A stretch of 34,384 bases of DNA from contig PEYI01000033.1 in NCBI GenBank assembly GCA_002774445.1, forward strand, positions 1 to 34,384. Reading direction: 5' to 3'. Of this stretch, positions 4,085 to 34,384 are shown in pieces. Position 1 is the stretch's first letter. Every line of letters begins with the position of its first letter. The position numbers were made by a program, and so were the translations under genes. The DNA comes from Candidatus Omnitrophica bacterium CG08_land_8_20_14_0_20_41_16. Lineage in GTDB: Bacteria > Omnitrophota > Gorgyraeia > Gygaellales > Profunditerraquicolaceae. The notes under the pieces are model-generated. The model made no database searches. It saw nothing but the letters and a program-made list of their open reading frames with translations, and had not been told where the DNA came from.

Positions 4085-4804
4085 ATGCTTTTAAATTTAT
4101 TAATTATTCAGACGGTTACCTTTATTGGAATATTTTTCCTTTTACGTTTTCTTTTTTCCCGCCATTTGAATGCTGCTCTGGCCAGATTAAATACCCTGCA
4201 TGAAGAGAATTTAATTAAGGAGCAACAGCTCACAGATGAACTTAAACGCGCCAAAGAAGAGGGTGATGCGCAGATTAAGCGGGCTAAAGATGAAGCCGGC
4301 TTAATTATTGAAGAGGCGCGCAATGAAGGTATCAAGTTACGCGCGAATCTGGAGGAGCAGGCCAAAACTCAAGTAACTAAAATTATTGCCGATGGCAATA
4401 ATGAGGCAGAGAGATTTAAAGAAAAATATTTGAAAGAGACCGAGGTCCACAGTTTGGATTTAGCCATGAAACTGGTCGAGCAGCTCTTAAGTGAAAAAGA
4501 TAAAGAAAATTTGCAGCAAGAGTTTATCTCTGAGATAATCTTTGAGATCGCTAAACTCTCTAAAAATCAATTCAGTGTAGTTTCGGATCGGGTCAAGGTT
4601 ATTTCTAGTCAATTACTTAGGAAAGATCAGAAAGAAAATTTGCAGCAGGTCTTAAAAGAAAAGACCGGCAGGGAGATGATTTTTGAGGAGATTTTGAGAA
4701 AGGATCTCATCGGCGGATTAATTGTTGAAATCGGCGGCTTAGTAATTGACGGAACTTTAAAAAATAAACTGCAAAGAATTCTTCCTTATTTTAAAAAAAA
4801 TTAA
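4085..4804 (+). CDS. atpFH: ATP synthase b-delta fusion subunit
   Basis: 239 residues. One N-terminal transmembrane helix (about 2-24) is followed by a long charged coiled coil (about 30-135, rich in KRAKEEG and EEARNEG patterns) typical of subunit b. The C-terminal third (about 165-235) matches the end of delta/OSCP, with the closing LIGGLIVEIGGLVIDGTLKNKLQRI pattern that corresponds to delta's DPxLIGGxxxxxGxxxxDxSxxxxLxxL. The protein therefore joins the peripheral stalk and its F1 attachment in one chain, which explains the lack of a separate atpH. ATG 4085 follows GGGAGAAGGGAG. The stop codon is the foot of a 24-bp hairpin that separates it from atpA. Confidence 0.88.
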   Translation: MLLNLLIIQTVTFIGIFFLLRFLFSRHLNAALARLNTLHEENLIKEQQLTDELKRAKEEGDAQIKRAKDEAGLIIEEARNEGIKLRANLEEQAKTQVTKIIADGNNEAERFKEKYLKETEVHSLDLAMKLVEQLLSEKDKENLQQEFISEIIFEIAKLSKNQFSVVSDRVKVISSQLLRKDQKENLQQVLKEKTGREMIFEEILRKDLIGGLIVEIGGLVIDGTLKNKLQRILPYFKKN

Positions 4805-4870
4805 ATAGGGACAGCAACCATTTTTAACTTATCGCTGCCCTATTTAAAAAATGGTTGCTGTCCCTATTTA
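4802..4870. repeat. 24-bp perfect REP-like hairpin between atpFH and atpA
   Basis: Positions 4802-4825 pair without mismatch with 4847-4870 around a 21-nt loop. The arm carries AAATAGGGACAGCAACCATT, a variant of the GGGACAGCGAC family with GCGACTATTT changed to GCAACCATTT in both arms. The stem begins at the stop codon of the b-delta gene and ends on the A of the atpA start codon, so the whole intergenic gap is this element. No Shine-Dalgarno is visible for atpA. The loop itself holds a partial copy (ATCGCTGCCCTATTTA). Confidence 0.9.
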
Positions 4871-6330
4871 TGCAAATTCAAGCTTTAGATATTAAAGAAG
4901 TCGGTAAGATCGAAGAGGTCAGGCAGGGGATTATCAAAATAAGCGGCCTGCCCAGTTGTTCTTATGGCGAGGTTATTGAGCTGGCTAATGGCTATAAAGG
5001 GATGATTATTGAATTTAATCCTAGCGGAGCCTACGGAATTGTCTTTGGTGATGAGCAGGGGGTCAACGTTGGGGACTCGGTTTCTAGTAAAGGCGAATTA
5101 TTAAACGTTCCGGTGGGAGAAAATTTTATCGGCCGGGTAGTTGATGCCTTAGGCAGGCCTTTGGATGGCAAAGAAGAGATTGAACCGGCAGGTTTTAACC
5201 CGGCATTTCGGGAAGCAGCCGGGGTTATGGAACGTGAACCGATTAATCAGGCGCTGCATACGGGAATTAAGATTATTGATCTTTTAATTCCTTTAGGCAA
5301 GGGGCAGCGTGAGTTAGTCGTCGGTGACCGGCAGATCGGTAAGACCAGCGTTGGCTTGGATACGATTATTAATCAAAAGGAGAAAAATGTTATTTGTATC
5401 TATTGTTGGATTGGGGGTAATAACGCTGCTTTTAATAAAATTATCCAACAGTTAAAACAAAAAGGTTTAATGGATTATGTTTTGGCGGTTTCAGCTTCTG
5501 CCGGAAGCTCTACTGCCGAGCAGTATCTTTGTCCTTATACCGCAGCTTCTTTAGGTGAATATTTTATGTATAAAGGTAAAGATGTTTTAATAGTTTTTGA
5601 TGACCTGACCAAACACAGCTGGGTTTACCGGCAGATGTCACTCCTGTTAGAACGCGCACCCGGGCGCGAAGCGTATCCGGGAGATATTTTCTTTCTGCAT
5701 TCCCAGCTTATGGAGCGGGCGGGCAGGTTAAAAACTAAATTTGGCGGTGGATCAATGACTTTTCTCCCCCTAGCGGAAACCTTACAAGGGGATATTACCG
5801 GCTATATTTGTTCAAATCTTGTTTCGATGACCGACGGACAGATTTATTTAAGCACCAATCTTTTTCAGGAAGGGTTTAAACCGGGGATTGATTTAGAGTT
5901 ATCGGTTTCACGTATTGGCAGCAAGGTGCAATGCCCAGCGATTAAAGAATTGAGCAAGGGCCTGCGGTATGAGTATGTACAGTTTCGATCTTTATTGCGT
6001 TTAACGCGCTTGAGGACCAAACTTTCTCCGGAGGCTGCTGCTCAACTACAGCGTGGCCGCACGCTTTATGAGATTTTAACGCAGGAAAATAATGCCCCGG
6101 TTTCTCAGGCCGAAGAAATTGCCCTATTTTATGCTTTTCAGAAAAGGATTTTAGAGGCATTGAATATCGCCCAAGTGAAAATATTTAAAAATGAATTTTT
6201 TAAACATTTAGAAAAATATAATCAGAGTCTGATTGATGATTTAAATAAACGGGGGGAGTTAACCGAAGAGGTTAAATTGCAGTTAGATAAAGTGATTAAG
6301 GAGTTCTTTAGAACTCTTATGCTAGGCTAA
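4870..6330 (+). CDS. atpA: ATP synthase F1 alpha subunit
   Basis: 486 residues from ATG 4870; a TTG 15 bp upstream lies inside the hairpin and is unlikely. The P-loop is G152-D-R-Q-I-G-K-T159 (the usual GDRQTGKT with Ile for Thr). The GGREAYPGD-type block appears as APGREAYPGDIFFLHSQLMERAG, and the arginine finger is R348 in SVSRIGSKVQ. Length is slightly below the usual 500-510, with a short N-terminal crown. It forms the non-catalytic half of the F1 hexamer. Translation may depend on coupling from the upstream gene or on disruption of the hairpin, since no ribosome site is seen. The gamma gene follows after 13 bp. Confidence 0.95.
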   Translation: MQIQALDIKEVGKIEEVRQGIIKISGLPSCSYGEVIELANGYKGMIIEFNPSGAYGIVFGDEQGVNVGDSVSSKGELLNVPVGENFIGRVVDALGRPLDGKEEIEPAGFNPAFREAAGVMEREPINQALHTGIKIIDLLIPLGKGQRELVVGDRQIGKTSVGLDTIINQKEKNVICIYCWIGGNNAAFNKIIQQLKQKGLMDYVLAVSASAGSSTAEQYLCPYTAASLGEYFMYKGKDVLIVFDDLTKHSWVYRQMSLLLERAPGREAYPGDIFFLHSQLMERAGRLKTKFGGGSMTFLPLAETLQGDITGYICSNLVSMTDGQIYLSTNLFQEGFKPGIDLELSVSRIGSKVQCPAIKELSKGLRYEYVQFRSLLRLTRLRTKLSPEAAAQLQRGRTLYEILTQENNAPVSQAEEIALFYAFQKRILEALNIAQVKIFKNEFFKHLEKYNQSLIDDLNKRGELTEEVKLQLDKVIKEFFRTLMLG

Positions 6331-11467: not shown

Positions 11468-12841
11468 ATGCGTACAAAAATAGTTATTGAGGTCTTGGAA
11501 CACTGGTTGAAGGTGAGCGTTGGCCATAAAGTTGCCGTTGAGCCTCTGGTTAATGTTGAGCCAGGGAGTATCTCTGCGGCATTAAATTCAATATTAAAGC
11601 AATATAAATGCGGTAAAGATTTGGATGTTTCGGTAGTGCTTAGCCGGAATAAAATTACAGTTCGCCGGGTGGATCTTCCTTCGCAAGACCCCAAAGAGAT
11701 TGAACAGATGCTCGGGCTTTATCTGATTCGCCAGATTCCGTATCATAAAGAAGAGGTGATCTGGGCTTATCAAAACCTGGGATTTGATGGCGTTAGTAAT
11801 AGTCATTTAATCTTGGCCGTTGCCTTAAAGAGTGTTTTTAAAAATATTGTTAGCTCTTTTGTTCCGGTGAGCATTCTTCCTGAATCTATTCTGATGAGCT
11901 CTCAGGGGTTGGTGCATTATGTAGTTGATGCGGCAAAAAATAAAGTTGCTTTACCAAATTCATATATGATTTTAGATATAGATACAAATTACAGCGACTT
12001 GGTTTTGGTACATAATCAAAAATTAGGCTCAAGCGTCGTTATCCCCCAAGGGGCTGAGCAACTGAAGGATTCTTTGGAAAAGGATAAATTTGCTGTGGAG
12101 TTTAAGCAGGCCCTGGTGGCTTTAAATAATGAGATACCCGATGCCCGTTGTGAGAAACTATTTTTAACCGGCGCAGCGAGTTCTCAATTGGTGTTTATGG
12201 AAATTATCTTAGGCAGGGATTTTAATTTGAAGGCCCAGTATCTTTCTTCTAAGGAGTATGATAATTTTCTGGCTTCTGGTTTTAAAGATGTTTCTTTGTC
12301 TGCGGTATTGGGTTTTAGCACGCATGTGGCCAAGGATGATCTTAAATTTATGCTTCCGGAAATCCAGATCAAGAAGGAGATGAAATTTAAGTTACAGCAA
12401 TTAATGATTTTGGGGGTAGGTTTAATTTATATTTTAATTATGTTGGGGGGGATTGCTTTAGTCAGGTTAGTTCAACAGCAATCTTATGCCGCGGATTTAA
12501 AAAATAGGGTTATCTCTTCGGGCAAGGAGGCTAAAGAGTTGGAGGATATTACAAGTAAATTAAAGATTGCCCGGCAATACGTGGATGCTAAATCTTCAGC
12601 ATTAACTTATCTTAATGGTTTGAACCGCTTGTGTCCGGATAATATTGTTATTACCAATTACAATTGGGAATTAGGCAAGGCGTTTACCATCAGAGGCTAT
12701 GCTCAAACAATCCCTGATATTTTGGATTTTACCAATACCTTGGGCAGTTCGGAAATTTTTAAAGGCGCCCAGAATCGTTACACGCGTCGAAGGAAATTAA
12801 AAGATAAAGATGTAATAGATTTTGAGATTTTCCTAAAATGA
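11468..12841 (+). CDS. gspL: PilM-PilN fusion/GspL-like assembly protein
   Basis: 457 residues. The N-terminal part (about 1-295) resembles the actin-like PilM/GspL cytoplasmic domain, with VSVVLSRNKITVRRVDLPSQDPKEI and a MILDIDTNYSDLVLVHN phosphate-binding-like segment. One transmembrane helix (about 312-335, LMILGVGLIYILIMLGGIALVRL) is followed by a coiled coil and a PilN-type alpha-beta periplasmic domain (about 375-457, LNRLCPDNIVITNYNW...FTIRGYAQTIPDILDF). A PilM-PilN fusion is the arrangement of GspL. It would anchor GspE to the membrane and contact the next gene product. It overlaps gspM by 4 bp. Confidence 0.85.
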   Translation: MRTKIVIEVLEHWLKVSVGHKVAVEPLVNVEPGSISAALNSILKQYKCGKDLDVSVVLSRNKITVRRVDLPSQDPKEIEQMLGLYLIRQIPYHKEEVIWAYQNLGFDGVSNSHLILAVALKSVFKNIVSSFVPVSILPESILMSSQGLVHYVVDAAKNKVALPNSYMILDIDTNYSDLVLVHNQKLGSSVVIPQGAEQLKDSLEKDKFAVEFKQALVALNNEIPDARCEKLFLTGAASSQLVFMEIILGRDFNLKAQYLSSKEYDNFLASGFKDVSLSAVLGFSTHVAKDDLKFMLPEIQIKKEMKFKLQQLMILGVGLIYILIMLGGIALVRLVQQQSYAADLKNRVISSGKEAKELEDITSKLKIARQYVDAKSSALTYLNGLNRLCPDNIVITNYNWELGKAFTIRGYAQTIPDILDFTNTLGSSEIFKGAQNRYTRRRKLKDKDVIDFEIFLK

Positions 12842-13431: not shown

Positions 13432-13830
13432 ATGAAAAAAGGGTTTACTTTAATTGAATTAATGTTGGTGGTAATTATTATCGGAGTTTTATCGGCGATG
13501 GTTGTCCCGCGTCTGGCTGGCCGATCTGAACAAGCGCGTATTCAGGCGGCTAAAACCGATATCAATTCCAGTATTCCTTTAGCCTTGGATCTTTATGAAA
13601 TGGATTCAGGCCATTATCCGGAGTTATTGGATTATTTAAGAACCCCGGGAGGAGCTAATGCCGAAAGTTGGCGCGGACCGTATCTAAAGAAAAAACCCCT
13701 GGATCCTTGGGGTAATATATATATTTATAAAGCTCCGGGTGAGCATAATTCTGATAGTTATGATCTTTCCTCTATGGGCAATGATAAAAAGCCGGGTACA
13801 GCCGATGATGTGGTAAACTGGAGTGAGTAA
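13432..13830 (+). CDS. gspG: Major pseudopilin GspG
   Basis: 132 residues. The prepilin leader is short and basic (MKKG), cleaved before F5 in G-FTLIELMLVVIIIGVLSAMVVP, with Glu at mature position 5. The globular part has the GspG pattern: long spine helix, the LDLYEMDSGHYPE segment, WRGPYLKKKPLDPWGNIYIY, and a C-terminal calcium-loop region (SSMGNDKKPGTADDVVNWSE). It is the main building block of the pseudopilus. Its leader shows an uninterrupted GGTTTACTTTA, the empty-site equivalent of the interrupted leaders in gspI and gspJ. It follows AGGGAGG, and its stop overlaps the gspI start. Confidence 0.95.
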   Translation: MKKGFTLIELMLVVIIIGVLSAMVVPRLAGRSEQARIQAAKTDINSSIPLALDLYEMDSGHYPELLDYLRTPGGANAESWRGPYLKKKPLDPWGNIYIYKAPGEHNSDSYDLSSMGNDKKPGTADDVVNWSE

Positions 13831-14356
13831 CTTGCGCGCCTTTACCCCGTTAGAAACAAGATACAAAGGAAGCCCCACGGTTGCCTCCGGCAACCTGTTT
13901 CTAACGGGGTTTACTTTAGTTGAATTAATGATTAGTGTGTTGATTCTGGGTATCGGCCTAACTTCAGTAGCTAATTCTTATATCCTGGCTCTGCGCGGAG
14001 CAAATTCTGCACAAAATAATATCTCCGCATTAATATTAGCCAAAGAAAAATTTGATAATTTAGAGTTTGTCAGCCTTAAAGGGGTTAAGCCGGCTATCGC
14101 TGCTGAGGAAACCATCAAAGGGCCGATTAAAGATTATAAATACCAACAAACAATTTTGAAATTGCCGGAATTTGCCGGTGGTGAGCTGGCCGATGCTGAA
14201 CCAGTAAGCGTTGAAGCAATAAGCCCGGAACCGGCGACTGTTGAATCTGATTATCTGGCTAAATTTTTAGTTTCGGCTTGTTCGACACTTACCTGGCCGG
14301 AGAAAAATTCCTCAAAAAATGTTACTCTCGCGACTTATTTACTCAGAAAAAAATAA
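13823..14356 (+). CDS. gspI: Minor pseudopilin GspI-like, with element-encoded leader
   Basis: 177 residues from GTG 13823, overlapping gspG by 8 bp; TTG 13832 behind GGAGTGAG is an equally possible start. The prepilin motif G-FTLVELMISVLILGIGLTSVANSYILALRG begins only at about residue 30. The preceding 23 codons are a 65-bp palindromic element plus its 4-bp duplication, giving MSNLR-AFTPLET...FLT before the cleavage Gly. The rest of the protein (about 30-177) has the single spine helix and small globular domain of minor pseudopilins, with a Glu/Pro-rich linker near 130. Its position after gspG and before gspJ-gspK identifies it as GspI. Confidence 0.85.
   Translation: MSNLRAFTPLETRYKGSPTVASGNLFLTGFTLVELMISVLILGIGLTSVANSYILALRGANSAQNNISALILAKEKFDNLEFVSLKGVKPAIAAEETIKGPIKDYKYQQTILKLPEFAGGELADAEPVSVEAISPEPATVESDYLAKFLVSACSTLTWPEKNSSKNVTLATYLLRKK
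13841..13913. mobile_element. 65-bp palindromic in-frame element, copy 1 (in gspI)
   Basis: The element spans 13845-13909. Terminal inverted repeats CCCCGTTAGAAACA (13845-13858) and TGTTTCTAACGGGG (13896-13909) are perfect over 14 bp. Direct TTTA repeats flank it (13841-13844 and 13910-13913), as expected for a target duplication. Inside are a 20-bp unique part (13859-13878) and a 7-bp hairpin GGTTGCC-TCC-GGCAACC (13879-13895). In the gspI frame it has no stop; 65+4 = 69 bp = 23 codons. The left end reads FTPLE and the right end LTG-FTLVE. Confidence 0.88.
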
Positions 14357-14993
14357 AATTCCTTATACCCGGCGCGCTTTTACCCCGTTAGAGACAGGCT
14401 GCCGCAGGCAGCCGTCAGACGCCTTCGGTTTCTTGTCTCTAACGGGGTTTACCTTAATCGAGCTATTGATCACGGTAGCTATTTTTTCAGTAGTCAGTAT
14501 CGCTATTTATTCAACTTTTGCCTCGGGTATGTCAGTTTTACGGCGGGTCAAAAATACTGATTTTACCCAGCAAAAATTCCTGCTTAAAACTGAAAGGCTT
14601 GCCCGTGAGTTGCGCCAGCAGCCTGCCTGCCGTAAAAAATTATTCCAGGGTGATAAAACAAAATTAAGTTTTTGTTCTAATGTTGATAATTTTCCTTCCC
14701 GGCTAACCTATTATTTTGATAGTTCAACCTTTGCCTTTAAGCGGGTGGCGGATAGATTAGATAAAATTATTAAAGAAGATGGTAACCTCGACCCGGAGCT
14801 ACGCACTGATCCGGTTATTTTTCTGGCCAAAGTCAAAGAAGTAAAATTTAGCTATCTTTATTTAGATTTGGCCAAAAATGATTATGTTTGGGCGGATAAG
14901 TGGGAGTTTGATTATTTACCGTTAGCGGTAAAATTTATTATTTCTACGGAAAAACAAAACTATGAATCAACCGTCTATTTACCGACAGCCTAA
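14319..14993 (+). CDS. gspJ: Minor pseudopilin GspJ-like, with element-encoded leader
   Basis: 224 residues if it starts at ATG 14319, which overlaps gspI by 38 bp; no Shine-Dalgarno is visible, so the start is uncertain. The cleavage motif G-FTLIELLITVAIFSVVSIAIYSTFASG begins near residue 44. The preceding RRAFTPLETG...LSLT segment is a second copy of the 65-bp palindromic element. The remaining protein has the GspJ-like layout: spine helix, a LKTERLARELRQQPAC helix, and a beta-rich domain ending in VKFIISTEKQNYESTVYLPTA. Position between gspI and gspK supports the call. Before insertion the leader probably read ...RRAFTLIEL. Confidence 0.83.
   Translation: MLLSRLIYSEKNKIPYTRRAFTPLETGCRRQPSDAFGFLSLTGFTLIELLITVAIFSVVSIAIYSTFASGMSVLRRVKNTDFTQQKFLLKTERLARELRQQPACRKKLFQGDKTKLSFCSNVDNFPSRLTYYFDSSTFAFKRVADRLDKIIKEDGNLDPELRTDPVIFLAKVKEVKFSYLYLDLAKNDYVWADKWEFDYLPLAVKFIISTEKQNYESTVYLPTA
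14379..14451. mobile_element. 65-bp palindromic in-frame element, copy 2 (in gspJ), inverted
   Basis: The element spans 14383-14447. Terminal repeats CCCCGTTAGAGACA (14383-14396) and TGTCTCTAACGGGG (14434-14447) are perfect over 14 bp. They differ from copy 1 by one base in each arm (A to G, T to C), which keeps the pairing. TTTA flanks both sides (14379-14382 and 14448-14451). The 7-3-7 hairpin GGCTGCC-GCA-GGCAGCC (14397-14413) lies at the left and the 20-bp part (14414-14433) at the right. That is the reverse of copy 1, so the two copies are in opposite orientations. There is no stop in the gspJ frame. Confidence 0.88.
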
Positions 14994-18797: not shown

Positions 18798-21700
18798 ATG
18801 TGGCGTAAAATTTCTTCCATTTTAGTTTCCTTGTGCTTAGTCTTTCAACAGTTAGGTTTCGCCAGCATTGCTACGGAACTTAACCTGGCCGGGCATTTGA
18901 GCAGAATGTCCGGTGGCTTTGTCCAGGACAGGTTTAGGCCGGTGCATATCAGGTTTTTCTCTTATGACGCGCTTAATGATAATATTAAGGTTATGCTGGA
19001 TAAGGGCGATGTCAAGGAGCTTAAAGGAGACCAGTTCAACGCCTCAACCAAGGAATTATTAAATTACTTCTTAGTAGGTATAAATCTTCCTAGCGATAAG
19101 TTTTGGGTAAATCTGCGCCCAGATTCCCAAGATAACATCATAGATGACTACTTAGCCAGGACTGATGTAGGCAAAATCATGCTTGAGACAGACCTGCAGC
19201 TTAAGAAAGATACCGCCCAATTTACCTCACCCGAAACCCCTGAAGGTAAGGAATACTGGAACAGGCTTTACCAGAAGGCCGAAGAGCTCTACGGCTACCA
19301 GGAAGTAACTATTCCTACTTTGACCCGTCCTTGGATAGTCCCCAATGAAATCATTGTCCGCCAAACCAAAGACAGCGCTTATATCTATAAGGCTACATTA
19401 AAGGTAATGCTCGAGCAGGATTTCCTTAAGGATTCCAGCGTTTATAACTTTAAGGATGAGCGCGCCAAGACTCTAAACGAATATTCTTCCCAGTTAATCC
19501 GCGAACTCATAATCCCTAAACTGACCAAAGAAGTTAATCTCTCTAAACGTTACGCCTCCTTAAGGCAGGTCTATTATTCCATTATCCTCTCCCGCTGGTT
19601 TAAGTCTCATTTTACCGGTCAGGCCGGAAAATACGCCTCGCGTATTGATAGAAAAGACCTTACCGGGCTTACTTCTGTTGCAGTTTGGTCTAAGTCTACT
19701 TATTTTGAGGCTTATAAGAAATCCTTCGCTCAAGGCGAATATAATATTAAGGAAACAGTCCGTACTCCTACGGGCCAGGTAATCCGCTCATATTTTAGCG
19801 GCGGCCAAGTCCTTACAGGTCAGGAATTAGATGCGGCAACTCAGGGCGTAAGCTTTTTAGATAGAGCAGCCAGTTCTATAGCCGGTTCGCTGGTATTAGC
19901 GGGATTAACCACGCCTCCCGGGATGGATATGCCAGGACAAGTAAGCAGTCCCGTATCTATTAAGGTAAGAGTAATCAATGACCTTGTCACAGTGGTAAAA
20001 GCTAAAGGCATTGATTCGGGGATGTTAGCCGCTGACTGGAATGTACCGTTAAAAGAAGGAAGGATTGATGATCCCGAAAAGATCGAGGCTTCTACTGAAG
20101 CGATAATCAACCTTTTTGATAATGTCGGTCTTAAATACATTTATGCTATGACTCATGCCGGCAGGCCTGATCCTAAAAAAGGATACGAAAAGGAATCTTC
20201 GCTTGAACCAATGGTAGAATCAGCCAGGGATTTTCTGGCAAAGAAAGGCCTTAAGGACGTAGAAATCGTATTATTGCCTTTTGATTTAGCCCAAGCTGAA
20301 AAAACAATCCAGGAATCTAAGGCTAAATTCAGCGATAAAAGGATAATGTTTGTGCTGGAAAATATCCGTTTTTACCGTGCCGAGCAGCTTAAGGCGGATA
20401 AAAAAGCCAAAGAAAAAGATAACGCCCAACTTATGGCTGAGAAAAAAGCCTTTGAAGAACAGCTCGTAAGTTTAACCGGAAGGACTGTAAATAATTTAGT
20501 TTATGTTAATGAGGCTTTTGACAAGGCCCATAGAGGCGAAGATTCGTCTATTCGGATGGCCTGGCTTTTTCCTGAGGAGAACAGGGCAGCCGGGTTTAAA
20601 TTCGCCAAAGATAGCCAGGCAGTGCTTGATTTTCAAGCTAAGGTTTTAGGGCGCTTAAGCGCTATGTTTGGTGGTAAAAAATTTGATAAATACGCTTCTT
20701 TTGGTAATTTGTCTAAGGCTATACAAGCTTCTGCAGGAACCCTGATGATAGTCGGAGCTCAAGCCAATCCTTATCTTAAGGATCAGGGCAACGAGATAGG
20801 TAAATCAATTATGCCTTCTAAGGAAGCAGATATAAAGAGCGTATCCGGAGGTATTGAAAAAATAAAAGCCTCCAAAGTAAATGTCCTTTTGCCTAAAGAT
20901 TTTGTGGTGTTAGGGAAAGACTCGTCAGTGAAATTAGAGGATATTACTTTAGAAGATTCTCAGATTGATATTGGGGATGAGTCAGCCCAAGAGATTGTTG
21001 CTTATATCAAATCTCTGAAAGCAGGCGACGGTCTGATCTTAAACGGAGGAGCCGGAGTTTTTGATAAAGCCAAAGAAAAAGGCGGCTCTAGTAAAGGAAC
21101 AATTGAAATAGTTTTAGCTGCAAATGAAGCGGCAAAAATAGGCGTAGCTGTTTTCTTTGCCGGCGGAGATATGAATAATGCCCTTAATGTGGTAGAAAAA
21201 GCCACGCCCGGTTTTAAGTTAGATGAAAGCGTTAGGACCTCTACGGCCGGCGGGGCTTTGCTTGAGGCTTTGACTCAAGGAGTAGCTAATCTGGCTGCGG
21301 TGCGGGCCATGCTTAAAATGGATACGGCAGAGTCGCTTTTTGGGATTCATAGTGTAATTAAAAACGCTTTTCCCGGCGCAATGGTTTTGCCTACTATCAG
21401 CACTCTTTCCGAAGATACTTCAATAGATGCCAGCGGCGCTTATAGGCAGGCTGCTTTGGATCTATTTAGGAAAAACGGTATTTATGTGGCGGTTCCAGAT
21501 GGTACCTTTGCCGATCAGGCTAAGTTGATGTATGGTTACATGGTTATGCCTATAGCTATTTTGGCTGAAAATGTCCCGGCAGAGCTTAAGGAAAAATTAG
21601 CTGCGGCTAAAGATGAAAAAGCAGCTACTCTCGCGGTCCAGGAATATCTTAAGAGCCGTTTAACAGAGCAGGGTATAAATATAGCGGATAAACAAATGCG

Positions 21701-24700
21701 TTCCAGTCTTTTAGATGCCGGAAAACTAGGCGCGGCAGCGGTGGATATACCTTCTTTGATCGCGATCAAGACCGATACGAACGACCTGCTTATCCAGATT
21801 CCAATTTGGGCGAAGAAGGATTACCGGGCAGTTGAGTCTTTGAATGAAAAGATTAATTCTGATTTCGAAGCTTTAAAGCCTTCGTTAGTTAACCTTATAA
21901 AAGAGGAACTTTCTTGGCCAAAAGAAAGTATAGATATTTCTACGCCCGAAGCTTCGCTTAATGCCTTGTCCAAATACGCTCCTTTATTTTTTGATGAATT
22001 ATCTAAGGGCGTTCTTACACATGTCAGCCTTTTAAGCAACATAGTCAGGAATATTGAGCCGCAGGCTATTGTTCAAGCCGAGGGCATTAAATATGATAGC
22101 CTGTTAAATTCTTTCGTTTCTAGTAAGGATCAGGAAGGAAAGATACCCGGTTTTGGCAAGAACTTAGAGAGTTTTCTGGGTAGTATTAATAATATGCAGC
22201 AGCTATCTTGGCTTTTGTATCTTTTAGTTACTCCTACGGTTGATGTTAATGCCCAGGCCGGAGTCGCAGTGGATAACCGGGAATTGCAGGATGCTGTCAT
22301 CGGATTTTATGGCCGTTCTTACCGGCACCTGCTTAGTTTAGCGCAGGAAAGTTTTAATGATCCGATGGTCTTTGAGCCGCTTAGGGCTGAAATCGGGAAT
22401 TACGCCCAGAAGTTAAATAAAGCTATACGTGCTCAAGGCGCCCTGGAAATTAACGGGGCCAATCCAGAGGCATTGATTAATTACCTCAGTAAAAAAGGGG
22501 TCAATCTTTCTCAAGCGGAGAAAGATAATATCAACCGGGTTTATGCCAGCTTAGGCAGTAATTTTGCCTATGATATACTACAGTTTGCAGGCATATTAAG
22601 TGAAGCTAATTTTATCTCTATCTTCCGTAATCTTAAGGTTGAAAACCCAAAGATAGTCCTGCCTTCTCAGAAACCCTATGAGGTTGATGATGGAACAGGC
22701 CGCATCGGTAGGCTGGCTTTAGCCTTCCGTCTGGCTAGCGATATCAATGCCCAGGAACCAGGTTATTTGGGCCGCTATTTAGTCAGGACTCGCGAAATTA
22801 AGGGCGCTACCCAAGAGGAGAAATTTGCCGCTGCTTTAGCTTCAACCATAGCAATGTTTAGCGACGCAGTAATTAAAGATTCTGGTTTAGGAATCAGGAC
22901 TCAAGGCGGAGTTTTAATTCCAATCGCTGAACTTATTGCTAATAAGCGGCTTAGTTTTGAGGCCGGTACTAAAGTTTTGACAGCCCAGTTGGATTTTCAA
23001 ACCCAGGCCCAGATATCTAGCGTATATCCGGTGGATATACTTCTGGATAATAAAAAAGTAGGCAGGGTTTATTTTGCCGATATAGCCAGCTTCAATTCCA
23101 GGCTTAAGGCCGAACTGCAAAAAGAAGGTGCTAGTCTGGATAATATTCCCCGTCCGGCTATAATCCAAGAAGAAGGTAAGTCGTATTATTTTGGTATATC
23201 AATTGATGCTATACCCGGCGGAGTAGAAATAGGCGATCAGGCGTTGAACAAAGCTTACAATGATAAGCTGGTAAAGCTTGACGGGCCCACTCTCTGGAGC
23301 ATGGTAGCTAAAGATAATTTAGGATTTTCCAGCGAAAAATTAGGGGATGCGCCGGAAGAATTAATCCGTTTAAAAGAGATATTGGGCCAGATTGAGAATT
23401 CGCGCTTGCCTAAAGGCCAGAAAGATGAGCTTTTTATTTATCTAAAAGCCCAGATCCCCAAAAAGCTGCTTCTTCCTTTAGGAGGCAGTATTAATGTAGC
23501 CGGCAAGTATCTGCAAAAGTTGCCTATGATTAAGCCGAGCGGCGCTGTATACATTAATCCTACGTCGTGTTCTACTAATGGTGGATTTTATGAGGCTCTT
23601 GCTCTATCAACGCTGTTTGGAGGGTTTGGAAGGCGGCAACTCGCTATATTGGGCTTGACTTTACATATGTATACTACCGGAGATAAAAAAGGTATTTACG
23701 GCGATTTTAACCCTAAGTCAACCGGCGCGGCTAAAGGAGTAAAACAACACCTTGCATTAACTACTCTTTTTACAGCCTTGCGTACGCCTACAGCCTATGT
23801 TGACGGCGCTACCGATATTGTGGGCGGGTCAATTTTTGACCTTTTGATTCAGCTTCCCGATAATGTCTCCCAAGAATTAGTGCGTAATTATCTTATCAGG
23901 GTTGGACTGGAATATCCGGAAATCTTAAGGGTATTTAACCCCAGTGATAAGGTTAATGACCGCTATCGCTGGAAGGACACTATTACAGGTCTGCGCACCG
24001 GTTCTATTCTTTATGAGGATTTCATTGAGCAGGTGTTAGGTAATATTTACAGGATGCCTGTTGGTTATGATAATGAGATGAGTTATTCCTTTAAGATGAA
24101 TGAGATGAAAGAGCAGCTTTTGTTAGTCTTAAGCCGCCAGAAGAGTATCGGCGCTTTAATGCAGGCAGCTCCTTTAGCAAATACTGCCATCGCAGTCAGC
24201 TCGGCGATTGAGTTTACTGTGGTAGATGTTGTTCCTTCGCAAACTACTACTTTAGGCGCACCTACATTGAGAGTGGATATACAATTAAAAGGCGGAGCAA
24301 AGGGGCATTTTGTGATTCCTGCGGGCACTTCTACAGGTGAAGGTGAAGCAAAGACTATTATGCAGGATGTTGGTTTTGAACAAGTTGCTAAAAATGTAAG
24401 ATTGGTTAACGAAGAAGCTGCGCGTCTGGGTTTAGGCGCGGATCAAGTAGTTGAAATTGCCAAACTAATGTTAAGTATGGGTAAAGACAAATTAGGCGCA
24501 GAGACAACATTAGGTTATCAAATGCCTTCTGCTTGGGCAGCTGCTAGTCAAATGGGCTTGGAGCCTTATGAGTTTATCCGCCTTCTCGCTCCTGATCTTG
24601 CTTCTAAAGGCGTTCCTAAGACGAAGATACAATATAATATAACTAATGGCGGACAACACGCTGAAAATAGTTTAGACATGCAAGAGTTTATGGTAGTGCC

Positions 24701-26084
24701 AATCGGTAAAACTACAGCTGAAGGCAATATGATGAACGATAATATAGATAGGCAACTCGGCCTGATCTACCAAGCCTTAGGCTTAAAAGCTGACCCGAAT
24801 GATAAAGGCGTTGGTAAATTGAGAGGTAAAGAAGGCGGATATAAAATAGAAGACTTGACTATGGGTAGACTAAAGGAAATTTATCAAAAGGCAAATTCAT
24901 ATAATATTCCTAATTTAGATATTCCTGCTTTAAGGGATCAGGGAATAGGGGTGCATGAGTTTGTCTTAAATTGCAAGATAGCCGCTATTAAGAATTCCGG
25001 GTATGAGCCGTCCACTGCCGGAAAAGTCGGGACTGTAGCATTGGCTTTGGATCCAGCAGCTACTTCTATGCTCGTAGAGGGACATGAGAACCTTTATAAC
25101 TATGAAGGTCGCCAGATTACTTCTAAAGAGCTAGCAGGAATATACGCGTCCTGGGCTAAAAAATATCCGATAGATTCAATTGAAGATGGTGTAGCTGAGA
25201 ATGATTGGGATGGGTTACTGGATCTTGTTGAGGCAGTTGGAGATAAGGTTATGGTTGTTGTGGACGATAATACTGTTTCTCAGGCCAGCCTTCTTTTGAA
25301 ATTCATTAACTTACTTAAAAAAAGAGGATTTATTGGAAAAGATGGCAAAGTAACAAAAAGGATAGGGATTCTCATCAAACTAAATCAGAATGGATTTTTG
25401 ACCACAGGTATAGATGATCCTGCGCAAGGCTACCAGGGAACTTTAGAAGTCATTCGGATCGCTAAAGAGCATGGAATAGAGTGGATAGTATCGCATCGCT
25501 CTAAGGAAGCAGAGCCGGAAGAGAATGAAGTTTCTATAGCTGAGGTTGCTGCAGGCACGAATGCCTATGGCTTAAAATCCGGAGATCATGTACAGGCAAT
25601 ACGCGCGGTTAAAGAAGACCGTTTGGCAGCAATTGATGCCAGGGAAAGGCTTGCCGCCAGCTCGGCGGTAAAAGCTCCGAGTGGTATTGATGCTTCGAAA
25701 AGCTCAGCATCGATTCCGAACAAAGAGGTGGGTGGAATCGATTTCCGTCCCGCTGCTATGCCTATCATTTACCAGCCGATGGGTAATTTCGCCAGCCTAA
25801 ACCCGAAGCTCCCGGTCTTAAGCAAGGCGGAATTGGCTGTTTTTGATATTGATAAAGAGCTTTCCGGAATAGAGAAACTGGTGGATAGCCAAATAGTTCC
25901 TTCCGGCGAGAGAATCAAAGAACTCTTAGCAGCTTGTTCGCAAAAGGGTGAGTTTGAGGGCCGCAGGGAACAATTGATGGCATTACTGGTAAAAATGGGG
26001 ATATTGGAAGAGACCCAGTGCTGTCTGCAGGAGGCCAGCCAGGGATATAAGGAAGCGTTGGTTCTGGCGGATTCCTTAGTATAA
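18798..26084 (+). CDS. Giant secreted protein with PGK-, GAPDH- and enolase-like regions
   Basis: 2428 residues. A signal peptide (about 1-27, MWRKISSILVSLCLVFQQLGFAS) predicts export. Residues about 28-380 are an unrecognised domain. About 395-850 resemble phosphoglycerate kinase: DWNVPLKEG (413-421), THAGRP (452-457), ENIRFYRAE (521-529), VYVNEAFDKAH, AGGD (788-791), STAGGA (815-820). The catalytic Arg equivalents are A411 and K (DDPEKIEA), and Lys of GGAKV is Q655, so kinase activity is doubtful. About 870-1285 are unrecognised. About 1290-1800 resemble GAPDH: GTGRIGR (1299-1305), TSC1591STN, LH1623MYT, STGAAK, YDNE, with about 150 extra residues before the Cys. About 1805-2290 resemble enolase with S1845, H1954, E1963, E2012, D2085, E2129, D2156, K2194, H2233 and K2260 retained. 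A tail with GGIDFRP (2312-2318) ends it. Giant proteins are known in Omnitrophota; the function here is unknown. Confidence 0.85.
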   Translation: MWRKISSILVSLCLVFQQLGFASIATELNLAGHLSRMSGGFVQDRFRPVHIRFFSYDALNDNIKVMLDKGDVKELKGDQFNASTKELLNYFLVGINLPSDKFWVNLRPDSQDNIIDDYLARTDVGKIMLETDLQLKKDTAQFTSPETPEGKEYWNRLYQKAEELYGYQEVTIPTLTRPWIVPNEIIVRQTKDSAYIYKATLKVMLEQDFLKDSSVYNFKDERAKTLNEYSSQLIRELIIPKLTKEVNLSKRYASLRQVYYSIILSRWFKSHFTGQAGKYASRIDRKDLTGLTSVAVWSKSTYFEAYKKSFAQGEYNIKETVRTPTGQVIRSYFSGGQVLTGQELDAATQGVSFLDRAASSIAGSLVLAGLTTPPGMDMPGQVSSPVSIKVRVINDLVTVVKAKGIDSGMLAADWNVPLKEGRIDDPEKIEASTEAIINLFDNVGLKYIYAMTHAGRPDPKKGYEKESSLEPMVESARDFLAKKGLKDVEIVLLPFDLAQAEKTIQESKAKFSDKRIMFVLENIRFYRAEQLKADKKAKEKDNAQLMAEKKAFEEQLVSLTGRTVNNLVYVNEAFDKAHRGEDSSIRMAWLFPEENRAAGFKFAKDSQAVLDFQAKVLGRLSAMFGGKKFDKYASFGNLSKAIQASAGTLMIVGAQANPYLKDQGNEIGKSIMPSKEADIKSVSGGIEKIKASKVNVLLPKDFVVLGKDSSVKLEDITLEDSQIDIGDESAQEIVAYIKSLKAGDGLILNGGAGVFDKAKEKGGSSKGTIEIVLAANEAAKIGVAVFFAGGDMNNALNVVEKATPGFKLDESVRTSTAGGALLEALTQGVANLAAVRAMLKMDTAESLFGIHSVIKNAFPGAMVLPTISTLSEDTSIDASGAYRQAALDLFRKNGIYVAVPDGTFADQAKLMYGYMVMPIAILAENVPAELKEKLAAAKDEKAATLAVQEYLKSRLTEQGINIADKQMRSSLLDAGKLGAAAVDIPSLIAIKTDTNDLLIQIPIWAKKDYRAVESLNEKINSDFEALKPSLVNLIKEELSWPKESIDISTPEASLNALSKYAPLFFDELSKGVLTHVSLLSNIVRNIEPQAIVQAEGIKYDSLLNSFVSSKDQEGKIPGFGKNLESFLGSINNMQQLSWLLYLLVTPTVDVNAQAGVAVDNRELQDAVIGFYGRSYRHLLSLAQESFNDPMVFEPLRAEIGNYAQKLNKAIRAQGALEINGANPEALINYLSKKGVNLSQAEKDNINRVYASLGSNFAYDILQFAGILSEANFISIFRNLKVENPKIVLPSQKPYEVDDGTGRIGRLALAFRLASDINAQEPGYLGRYLVRTREIKGATQEEKFAAALASTIAMFSDAVIKDSGLGIRTQGGVLIPIAELIANKRLSFEAGTKVLTAQLDFQTQAQISSVYPVDILLDNKKVGRVYFADIASFNSRLKAELQKEGASLDNIPRPAIIQEEGKSYYFGISIDAIPGGVEIGDQALNKAYNDKLVKLDGPTLWSMVAKDNLGFSSEKLGDAPEELIRLKEILGQIENSRLPKGQKDELFIYLKAQIPKKLLLPLGGSINVAGKYLQKLPMIKPSGAVYINPTSCSTNGGFYEALALSTLFGGFGRRQLAILGLTLHMYTTGDKKGIYGDFNPKSTGAAKGVKQHLALTTLFTALRTPTAYVDGATDIVGGSIFDLLIQLPDNVSQELVRNYLIRVGLEYPEILRVFNPSDKVNDRYRWKDTITGLRTGSILYEDFIEQVLGNIYRMPVGYDNEMSYSFKMNEMKEQLLLVLSRQKSIGALMQAAPLANTAIAVSSAIEFTVVDVVPSQTTTLGAPTLRVDIQLKGGAKGHFVIPAGTSTGEGEAKTIMQDVGFEQVAKNVRLVNEEAARLGLGADQVVEIAKLMLSMGKDKLGAETTLGYQMPSAWAAASQMGLEPYEFIRLLAPDLASKGVPKTKIQYNITNGGQHAENSLDMQEFMVVPIGKTTAEGNMMNDNIDRQLGLIYQALGLKADPNDKGVGKLRGKEGGYKIEDLTMGRLKEIYQKANSYNIPNLDIPALRDQGIGVHEFVLNCKIAAIKNSGYEPSTAGKVGTVALALDPAATSMLVEGHENLYNYEGRQITSKELAGIYASWAKKYPIDSIEDGVAENDWDGLLDLVEAVGDKVMVVVDDNTVSQASLLLKFINLLKKRGFIGKDGKVTKRIGILIKLNQNGFLTTGIDDPAQGYQGTLEVIRIAKEHGIEWIVSHRSKEAEPEENEVSIAEVAAGTNAYGLKSGDHVQAIRAVKEDRLAAIDARERLAASSAVKAPSGIDASKSSASIPNKEVGGIDFRPAAMPIIYQPMGNFASLNPKLPVLSKAELAVFDIDKELSGIEKLVDSQIVPSGERIKELLAACSQKGEFEGRREQLMALLVKMGILEETQCCLQEASQGYKEALVLADSLV

Positions 26085-33066: not shown

Positions 33067-34384
33067 ATGTTCAAGAAAGTATCAGGCACAAAAGATATCC
33101 TGCCTAAGGAGTCGGGTATTTGGCAGGAGATAGAAGAGATTAGCCGCAGGGTATTCTCTCTTTATAATTTTAAAGAGATTCGTTCTCCCCTAATTGAAGA
33201 GGCGGCGTTATTCAACCGTTCTTTAGGCGAAGGCACGGAAATAGTCCAGAAACAGATGTTCCTTATGCAGAATAAAAATGAGCTTTATGCCTTAAGGCCG
33301 GAAGGAACAGCTTCAATTGTCCGCGCTTATATAGAAAATAATTTTGATAAAACCTCGCCTTTCTCCAAATTTTATTATATAGGCCCTATGTTTAGATTAG
33401 AACGCCCGCAAAAAGGCCGGCTGCGGCAATTTAATCATATCGGCTGCGAAGCCATCGGCTCTTATGAACCTGAATTAGATATAGAAATAATATCCCTCGC
33501 GGATAGTTTACTAGATAGCCTCTCTATAACCGGATATAAAATAAAACTTAATAGTTTGGGCTGCCTTAAAGATAAAAATGAACTTACCGAAAGTTTACGT
33601 AGAAATCTTGAAGCCAAGGCAACTGAGCTTTGCGATGATTGCAAGGAACGGATTAAGAATAATCCCTTAAGGGTATTAGATTGCAAAAACGATTCCTGCA
33701 GGCAGATAGTCAAAAACTTAAACCTTAAGACAGCATATCTTTGCGATGATTGCAAGGCGCATTTTGATAAAGTAAGGACAGGGTTAGACTCCTTAAATAT
33801 AAAATATGAACTCGCCCCTTATCTTGTGCGCGGCTTAGATTATTACACTGGAACAGTCTTTGAGATTACTCATAAAGATTTGGGCGCTCAGGATGCAATT
33901 GGCGCGGGAGGCAGATACAATAATCTGGTCAAAGAACTCGGCGGCCCAAGTTTAGGAGCCATTGGTTTCGCGTTCGGAGTTGAAAGACTTTTATTGGTGT
34001 CAAATGTCAGGTGCCAGGTGCCAAGTAAAAATTTGGTATATATAATTACACTCGGGGATAAGGCAAAATCAGCCGGATTAGGAATATTGAATGAATTACG
34101 TTATAAAGGAGTACCTGCTGACACTGACTACGAAGGAAAATCAATTAAAGGAGCCCTGCGTAAAGCAAACGATATGAACGCTCGCTTTGCGCTCATTATC
34201 GGAGATAACGAAATAAAAAAAGATGCGGTAACCTTAAAAGATATGATTTCCGGAGAACAAAAAGAAGTTCGAATTAAAGACCTGACCAAAGAATTAAACC
34301 CTGTTAGAAATACCAAATTTCCTAAGGGGGGAAGCAAAATTTCTAACGGGGTAAACCCTGTTAGAAATACCAAATTTCCTAACG
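33067..34384 (+). CDS. hisS: Histidyl-tRNA synthetase, 3' end beyond window
   Basis: 439 codons from ATG 33067 without a stop; the gene runs off the right edge. Class II motifs are present: motif 2 in FRLERPQKGRLRQFNHIGCEAIG, the HisRS signatures L253-V-R-G-L-D-Y-Y-T and GAGGRYNNL, and motif 3 GAIGFAFGVERLL. The anticodon-binding domain follows (VYIITLGDKAKSAGLGILNELRYKGVPAD). The linker between the two (SNVRCQVPSK) is encoded by a GTGCCAG repeat. The family normally ends at about 415-430 residues; here, after KDLTKEL (about 410), the frame continues through two palindromic elements as NPVRNTKFP...ISNGVNPVRN. It charges tRNA-His with histidine. No Shine-Dalgarno is evident. Confidence 0.93.
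   Translation, partial: MFKKVSGTKDILPKESGIWQEIEEISRRVFSLYNFKEIRSPLIEEAALFNRSLGEGTEIVQKQMFLMQNKNELYALRPEGTASIVRAYIENNFDKTSPFSKFYYIGPMFRLERPQKGRLRQFNHIGCEAIGSYEPELDIEIISLADSLLDSLSITGYKIKLNSLGCLKDKNELTESLRRNLEAKATELCDDCKERIKNNPLRVLDCKNDSCRQIVKNLNLKTAYLCDDCKAHFDKVRTGLDSLNIKYELAPYLVRGLDYYTGTVFEITHKDLGAQDAIGAGGRYNNLVKELGGPSLGAIGFAFGVERLLLVSNVRCQVPSKNLVYIITLGDKAKSAGLGILNELRYKGVPADTDYEGKSIKGALRKANDMNARFALIIGDNEIKKDAVTLKDMISGEQKEVRIKDLTKELNPVRNTKFPKGGSKISNGVNPVRNTKFPN
34005..34023. repeat. GTGCCAG heptad repeat inside hisS linker
   Basis: TGTCAGGTGCCAGGTGCCA contains about 2.5 copies of a 7-bp unit (GTGCCAG). It encodes part of the linker between the catalytic core and the anticodon-binding domain of HisRS. 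The GTGCCAGGTGCCAG string is a common intergenic repeat type in bacteria; here it is in frame. Confidence 0.6.
34295..34355. mobile_element. 53-bp palindromic in-frame element, copy 3 (in hisS)
   Basis: The element spans 34299-34351, with terminal repeats CCCTGTTAGAAAT (34299-34311) and ATTTCTAACGGGG (34339-34351), 12 of 13 positions pairing. TAAA, the complement of TTTA, flanks both ends (34295-34298 and 34352-34355). 53+4 = 57 bp = 19 codons with no stop in the hisS frame. The termini match the gspI and gspJ elements; the 27-bp interior differs. Confidence 0.82.
34356..34384. mobile_element. Palindromic element, copy 4, cut by window edge
   Basis: CCCTGTTAGAAATACCAAAT starts directly after the shared TAAA at 34352-34355 and repeats the left 28 bases of copy 3 (34299-34326), diverging only at the final G. 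The element continues beyond the window. Copies 3 and 4 are therefore a direct tandem sharing one flanking tetranucleotide. Confidence 0.78.

Follow-up and report, generated by a model that had tools for sequence, protein, structure and literature searches.

How does a palindrome with the marks of a mobile element come to lie in frame within the leaders of two neighbouring pseudopilin genes, and what could have put it there? The question is raised by a 34,384-nucleotide stretch of DNA, here called the window, which is contig C31 of an Omnitrophota genome (G000) of 1.18 Mb in 98 contigs. The window carries a T2SS operon in which GspE, GspF, a PilN-like protein, a GspM-like protein, GspG, GspI, GspJ and GspK are recognised by Pfam and NCBIfam, and the features of interest are the following.

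13432..13830, + strand: gspG, major pseudopilin, with an uninterrupted leader, the in-operon control (Pfam T2SSG, 3.4e-25)
13823..14356, + strand: gspI, with an element inside its leader (TIGR01707/PilV/N_methyl)
13841..13844, no strand: TTTA, left target duplication of the gspI copy (from the sequence)
13845..13909, + strand: 65-bp palindromic element in the gspI leader, with 14-bp terminal inverted repeats (TIR), in-frame reading FTPLETRYKGSPTVASGNLFLTG
13907..13924, + strand: restored prepilin cleavage motif of gspI, GGG TTT ACT TTA GTT GAA (G/FTLVE), its Gly codon derived from the element
13910..13913, no strand: TTTA, right target duplication of the gspI copy
14319..14993, + strand: gspJ, with an element inside its leader (TIGR01711/PRK08808/N_methyl)
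14379..14382, no strand: TTTA, left target duplication of the gspJ copy
14383..14447, + strand: 65-bp palindromic element in the gspJ leader, reading FTPLETGCRRQPSDAFGFLSLTG, folding as a stem with two inner hairpins
14445..14462, + strand: restored prepilin cleavage motif of gspJ, GGG TTT ACC TTA ATC GAG (G/FTLIE)
14448..14451, no strand: TTTA, right target duplication of the gspJ copy
34299..34351, + strand: third copy in the window, 53 bp, flanked by a TAAA duplication, in the reading frame of hisS and close to its 3' end (HisS by Pfam), NPVRNTKFPKGGSKISNGV
34356..34384, + strand: fourth copy, in tandem and with TAAA in common with the third, of which only the start is present as the contig ends

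The sequence confirms what a sequence-only reading of this DNA had described, namely two 65-bp elements with perfect 14-bp TIRs and TTTA on both sides in the prepilin leaders of gspI and gspJ, an uninterrupted gspG leader next door, and a length of element plus duplication of 69 bp or 23 codons that is open in the host frame (FTPLE...LTG) in both orientations. The claim that the element restores the Gly(-1)-Phe(+1) pair also holds, as its last codon is Gly before Phe in both genes; the right end in this frame is CTA ACG GGG, encoding Leu-Thr-Gly, behind which the host sequence continues untouched with Phe-Thr-Leu-(Ile/Val)-Glu and the hydrophobic helix. In keeping with this the N_methyl/IV_pilin_GFxxxE match begins right behind the element in both gspI and gspJ, with Gly(-1)-Phe(+1), Glu(+5) and the hydrophobic segment. 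As single strands both elements fold better than 200 of 200 shuffled sequences (z = -6.9 and -8.3). A prepilin peptidase homologue is present in the window genome, and such an enzyme should remove an N-terminal insert together with the leader when the cleavage motif behind the insert is intact. Elsewhere in the window there is another repeated intergenic palindrome (947-1013, 1836-1867 and 4798-4871; TAAATAGGGACAGCGACTATTTTT and its complement), which is probably a separate short repeat family, and a 2428-aa open reading frame (18798-26084) that adjoins a chaperonin gene.

Orthologues with precise empty TTTA sites, which would be anticipated if the elements had been inserted, were found for gspJ in locus L115, from a close relative, and for gspI and gspJ, both uninterrupted, in L301. 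In L115 the gspJ sequence is S-A-F-T-L-V-E, its TTTA being unbroken, and this empty site has Ala at -1, where after insertion the element provides Gly. The gspI of L115 has an insertion in common with the window, also of 65 bp but diverged in its interior. Given that the gspI insertion is common to the two loci and that the gspJ of L115 is empty, the gspI insertion is probably older than the split between the window and L115, and the gspJ insertion younger.

The description of the element as a mobile, MITE-like palindrome is therefore upheld by target duplications, by empty sites and by copies at unrelated loci. Searched with a strict two-ended pattern, the whole window genome has 12 copies, against none for a reversed-pattern control, and a looser scan of loci finds at least 26 related copies in that genome, mostly of 53 bp, with target duplications of TTTA, TAAA, TGAA, TTCA and TTAG; tandem pairs have one duplication in common. 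Identical or near-identical copies occur at unrelated sites, also across genomes, and there are zero-mismatch 65-bp copies in L078, L126 and L214, the first and last of which are possibly one genome whilst L126 is from a different MAG. Among 84,980 species genomes at least 116 stretches match the strict TTTA-flanked pattern, the listed matches coming, by their record titles, from Omnitrophota, several Patescibacteria lineages, Planctomycetota, Elusimicrobia, Nitrospirae, Nitrospinota, Deltaproteobacteria-type MAGs, Cloacimonadota, WOR-3 and Aerophobetes. The spread is patchy, with palindromes in 49 of 285 Omnitrophota genomes and in none of four congeners. There was no match to the strict pattern in 2.9 million viral contigs and phage-borne spread was set aside.

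When 100 copies were chosen with no requirement for a target duplication (TSD), 77 were found to have an exact 4-bp TSD, all of which start with a pyrimidine and end with a purine, so that the TSD has the form Y-N-N-R, most often TTTA or TAAA. The expectation that the genome copies would be flanked by TTTA is thus correct in that TTTA occurs, but other duplications are found too, all of the Y..R form. The flanks are unequal in the remaining 23 copies and still mostly fit Y..R; they may have arisen by recombination between copies or from a donor flank that was carried over. In L059, L212, L215, L216 and L207 the flanks are unequal with CAGG/CCTG recurring on one side and another Y..R tetramer opposite, and this recurrent one-sided flank may possibly be a carried-over donor flank. 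The base after TTTA is C in 62% of sites; an asymmetric 5-bp TSD (TTTAC) was considered and rejected, as copies with another base after TTTA retain the end C and a 4-bp TSD fits better.

The ends of the palindromes are inverted repeats of the form (C/T)CC(C/T)GTTAGA... that pair as a 13-bp stem. Positions 1-10 of the stem are almost invariant because of the search design, however in a set of 209 copies positions 11, 12 and 13 are complementary in 98, 92 and 87%, compared with 53, 69 and 34% on shuffling of the partners. All four Watson-Crick types are present, 137 non-redundant copies give similar values, and at position 14 pairing falls below chance, giving the stem a sharp end at 13. Because positions 11-13 vary and yet stay complementary, it is the pairing of the arms that is conserved beyond their sequence, which points to a hairpin, a cruciform or arm copying in the life cycle of the element. 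A strong covarying stem would also suit sequences that matter as RNA, for example in transcript stability or regulation, and that are not currently mobile, but with duplicated targets, empty sites and copies that agree without a mismatch between unrelated loci and between genomes this is highly improbable.

Palindrome lengths range from 44 to 73 bp and the commonest come in steps of three (44, 47, 50, 53, ... 71). On translation two frames can be used, NPVRN...SNGV and FTPLE...LTG, and the remaining one contains TAG. Most genic copies in the window genome are in the NPVRN...SNGV frame and within unrelated genes, the hosts including those for HisS, AlaS, HolB-like, PilM-like, Sua5/LMW phosphatase and PD-(D/E)XK nuclease proteins. 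For a wider test of frame the flanks of each copy were joined by script and the resulting empty site was scored for a long open frame. Length plus four is divisible by three in 72 of 77 copies where this frame has at least 200 open codons and in 51 of 51 where it has at least 250, against 16 of 37 copies with fewer than 50 open codons (non-coding), which is near one third. That length plus four is a multiple of three consequently holds mainly within coding frames and breaks down in non-coding DNA, where lengths are near random, which gives no support to an intrinsic property of the palindrome; judging from these counts it is mainly a survivor effect in genes.

What then of the prepilins? Fifteen copies in the collected set, from Omnitrophota and Planctomycetota, lie exactly at the prepilin cleavage motif, and L083 has an additional, second copy of this kind near the end of the locus, beyond these fifteen. 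Prepilin cleavage sites hold 9 of the 117 TTTA-flanked copies where about 0.02 would be expected by chance, an estimate based on 209 Gly-Phe-Thr sites with TTTA in forty relatives among about 1.3 million TTTA/TAAA sites, and an enrichment in prepilin leaders, as had been proposed, is therefore real, though more than 90% of copies lie elsewhere. That the element is adapted to prepilins does not follow, indeed the palindrome is not specific to them, as most genic copies are in unrelated genes and in the other frame, and further copies lie in non-coding DNA. An element specialised for prepilin leaders, which would target or exploit prepilin genes as a protected niche, might account for the excess over chance and for the observation that adjacent prepilins can both be struck (the window, L083 and L095), but most copies are in other frames, in other genes or at non-coding positions, and the sites have in common only the short Y-N-N-R core and the frequent C after TTTA, so that we regard such specialisation as hardly credible.

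Another possibility is that the excess reflects gene-family size in Planctomycetota, which are richer in prepilins, together with inherited insertions that are counted repeatedly, and not neutrality at the cleavage site. The cases do come from two phyla and the gspI insertion is common to L115 and the window; however, a prepilin target five times larger still gives p ~1e-15, the copies at cleavage sites are diverse in interior, length (53, 59 and 65 bp) and host, and the gspJ insertion of the window arose after the split from L115, which together make this account distinctly unlikely. The prepilin pattern is better explained by tolerance, together with the frequent occurrence of the TTTA(C) target in Phe-Thr codons, as trimming by the peptidase would make insertion at these sites nearly neutral and so lead to their over-representation.

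It remains to ask what moves the palindromes. Inspection of palindrome ends with no near partner, followed by a PF01541 search, revealed longer units that have the same ends. A 279-bp unit in a Desulfobacteraceae MAG combines the same 14-bp ends with a single gene, for a GIY-YIG nuclease, and the genome of the window has a 268-bp GIY-YIG unit of its own (in G000:C17) with TCCTGTTAGACCT ends and a TGAA duplication (PF01541, 1.4e-15). The same architecture is found in the congener G004 and in G005, and in G036 with GTTCGA in place of GTTAGA. These units are 265-310 bp long and their only gene is that of a UPF0213-like nuclease of about 86 aa, the frame of which spans the unit about end to end; they occur in Omnitrophota, Patescibacteria, Planctomycetota, Nitrospinota and Desulfobacterota-type genomes with the ORF in a constant position. 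Several copies even take their start and stop codons from the flanking duplication. Thus the nuclease gene of G000 and G004 has an ATG and a TGA that both overlap with the duplicated TGAA, and its frame has MNPVRP at its start and GLTG at its end, peptides that are also encoded by the palindromes.

The protein itself belongs to the GIY-YIG nuclease superfamily by its motifs, catalytic Arg and Glu and fold. The protein alignment shows no variation at the Tyr (Y..Y), YTG, Arg, His, Glu and Lys positions. By sequence the protein is related to two UPF0213 entries of the PDB, 1zg2 and 1ywl, and an AlphaFold2 single-sequence model (pLDDT 81) has 1zg2 as its best structural match (E 1.7e-4), with weak, non-significant matches to the structure-specific nuclease Slx1 and to I-TevI. 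Plasmid-borne relatives of the G000 nuclease came to two weak matches only.

The link between gene and ends is seen well beyond these examples. When a five-protein alignment was used as the query for homologues, a 13-bp inverted repeat surrounded the gene in 23 of 30 loci fetched from among the best GIY-YIG matches in 285 Omnitrophota genomes (with a matching TSD in 12 of 30), and in 19 of 30 loci in element-bearing genomes of other phyla (matching TSD in 8 of 30), compared with 47 of 3000 random 255-bp windows of element-bearing loci, 5 of 3000 having a matching TSD as well. More distant GIY-YIG genes from the PF01541 search mostly have no such ends and serve as an internal negative control. 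Furthermore similarity between nucleases predicts similarity between their 13-bp ends (Mantel r=0.60, p=0.0002, n=27 distinct units), and palindromes are present in 21 of 42 Omnitrophota genomes with a strong GIY-YIG homologue (about E<=1e-28 on our reading of the matches) as against 28 of 243 others (OR 7.7, p=6e-8, with relatedness ignored). No strong homologue was found in 28 of the 49 palindrome-bearing Omnitrophota genomes, the MAGs being incomplete. The inner stem bases of the G000 palindromes are AAC, AAT and GAC, compared with CCT in the resident GIY-YIG element, and the resident copy may thus not be the mobiliser of the palindromes in this genome.

Other small GIY-YIG genes lie between unrelated palindromic repeat families (TCGTCATTCTGAGGAGCGAAGCGACG; TGTCATTCCTGCG) in L260 (1410-1764) and L262 (1301-1823), which suggests that GIY-YIG nucleases have partners in more than one family of palindromes. 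Units of this nuclease type with inverted ends of other sequence were seen in L347, L336, L332, L342, L294, L299 and L337 (CCCCACACCTTTT with a TAAA duplication, GCCCAGTGTAAT, ACCCTGTGAAATATT, CCCTGTTAAATAA and CCCCGTTACAAAT), a sign that the family of end types is larger. A GIY-YIG ORF is also found amid ATTCCCGC...GCGGGAAT (dRS3-like) repeats in Neisseria gonorrhoeae (L354, NZ_CP119140.1 1881478-1883356), an association which may be chance, such repeats being common there.

An alternative is that some other, unseen transposase moves both the palindromes and the TIR-bounded units, the GIY-YIG gene being a captured passenger. TIRs with a 4-bp TSD are typical of DDE transposases, and cargo capture does happen: L194 (G040:C50) has at 12483-12613 a 131-bp unit with palindrome-family ends, a TGAG duplication and a complete tRNA-Met(CAT) gene inside, so that these ends can carry cargo. 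However, a search around 20 unpaired ends brought up no longer unit in which these ends are combined with a transposase, and the end-to-end pairs of 0.6-3.6 kb in the loci enclose ordinary genes by their ORFs, with no transposase recognised by eye. A passenger would also not be expected to be the same ORF at the same position in all the phyla listed above, or to co-vary with the ends. Y1/IS200 transposases were considered as the mobiliser and rejected: the genome has two matches, the loci examined in it and in its relatives have none of these ends, and most relatives have Y1 genes whether or not they carry palindromes. One of these genes (G000:C91:34161-34517, L176) is an IS200/IS605-like tnpA with a strong family match and an adjoining tnpB, and is unlinked to palindrome ends. 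Overall an unseen transposase seems unlikely.

We consider it likely, with catalysis deduced from linkage, that the palindromes are non-autonomous, MITE-like members of a widespread GIY-YIG mobile family and are moved in trans by the nuclease. The nuclease would recognise the paired 13-bp stem, excise or nick the element and make a 4-nt staggered break at the target, with host repair completing the insertion, and the palindromes of 44-73 bp, which retain the ends and have no gene, would be mobilised by the same enzyme. Insertion would be broad, genic copies surviving mainly if length plus four is a multiple of three and a stop-free frame (NPVRN..SNGV or FTPLE..LTG) is used. The preference of Slx1-like enzymes for branched DNA is a precedent for recognition of a stem; we know of no GIY-YIG enzyme that leaves a 4-nt TSD. 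The fuller proposal, to which we give somewhat better than an even chance, is that a ~280-bp inverted-repeat element has as its transposase a stand-alone GIY-YIG nuclease of about 86 residues, which recognises the 13-bp hairpin and cuts Y-N-N-R targets, that the gene-less derivatives of this element are the protein-coding palindromes across phyla, and that other GIY-YIG-linked palindromes, possibly RPE-like ones, move likewise.

How do these elements compare with known systems? REPs depend on a Y1 enzyme (RAYT) and have no TSD, and the suggestion that the palindromes are REP-like fails in the strict sense, the linked enzyme here being a GIY-YIG nuclease. Like REP/REPIN-RAYT systems they are palindromic miniature repeats linked to an enzyme gene, unlike them they have TSDs, and the Y1 genes examined are unlinked. 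REPs carry GTAG/CGTC tags (PMC3733652). The RPEs of Rickettsia (Ogata et al. 2000, summarised in PMC2229807 and PMC10969869) are 105-146 bp long, with the TSD marked as unknown and a mobilising enzyme that is not known. Both are short TIR palindromes found in frame in many unrelated conserved protein genes, in coding and non-coding DNA, but compared by description the present palindromes are shorter, have a 4-bp Y-N-N-R TSD and a 13-bp stem, span many phyla and have a linked full-length form that encodes a GIY-YIG nuclease. With bacterial MITEs such as RUP and Correia/NEMIS they share TIRs (14 bp in the window copies, a 13-bp stem family-wide), the TSD in 77 of 100 copies, the lack of a transposase gene, high copy number and presumed mobilisation in trans. 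The proposed partner of RUP is IS630-Spn1, an IS transposase (PMC2229807), whereas for the present palindromes no IS transposase partner was found near the 20 unpaired ends or among the long end pairs, and the unit that shares their ends carries a GIY-YIG nuclease, a putative transposase.

GIY-YIG homing endonucleases and UPF0213 proteins have the same nuclease fold and catalytic motifs (PMC1564403). Homing endonucleases cut the uninterrupted allele and, according to this survey, do not recognise their own mobile DNA; a homing endonuclease acting on its cognate allele only does not fit here, as the units have inverted ends and lie at unrelated sites with short TSDs. By a search for these terms the survey makes no mention of inverted repeats or palindromes. 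In Penelope-like retroelements (PMC3846280) a GIY-YIG nuclease also serves transposition, a role that is putative here, but these are eukaryotic and have a reverse transcriptase, a gene that the present units do not have. In the open-access literature, the scope of our search as distinct from subscription papers and preprints, there is no earlier description of a GIY-YIG transposon, of these end sequences or of the NPVRN/FTPLE peptides, and no RPE or MITE is described as linked to a GIY-YIG unit. Whilst the palindromes alone are of the RPE/MITE kind, the linked system of palindrome and nuclease would be categorically new if the role of the enzyme holds.

Since 2000 it has been an open question by what means protein-coding palindromes like the Rickettsia ones are spread; a review (PMC2229807) treats movement by a transposase as a hypothesis with no experimental support and leaves the mechanism to future work. 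The ends and the target rule that they have in common, together with co-variation, now link such palindromes to a very small candidate enzyme. If this nuclease moves the palindromes, GIY-YIG would be a new class of prokaryotic transposition enzyme with a complete unit of less than 300 bp, and the ~280-bp element would be among the smallest gene-carrying transposons. The prepilin case adds that the processing of a host protein could erase an insertion in DNA at the level of the protein.
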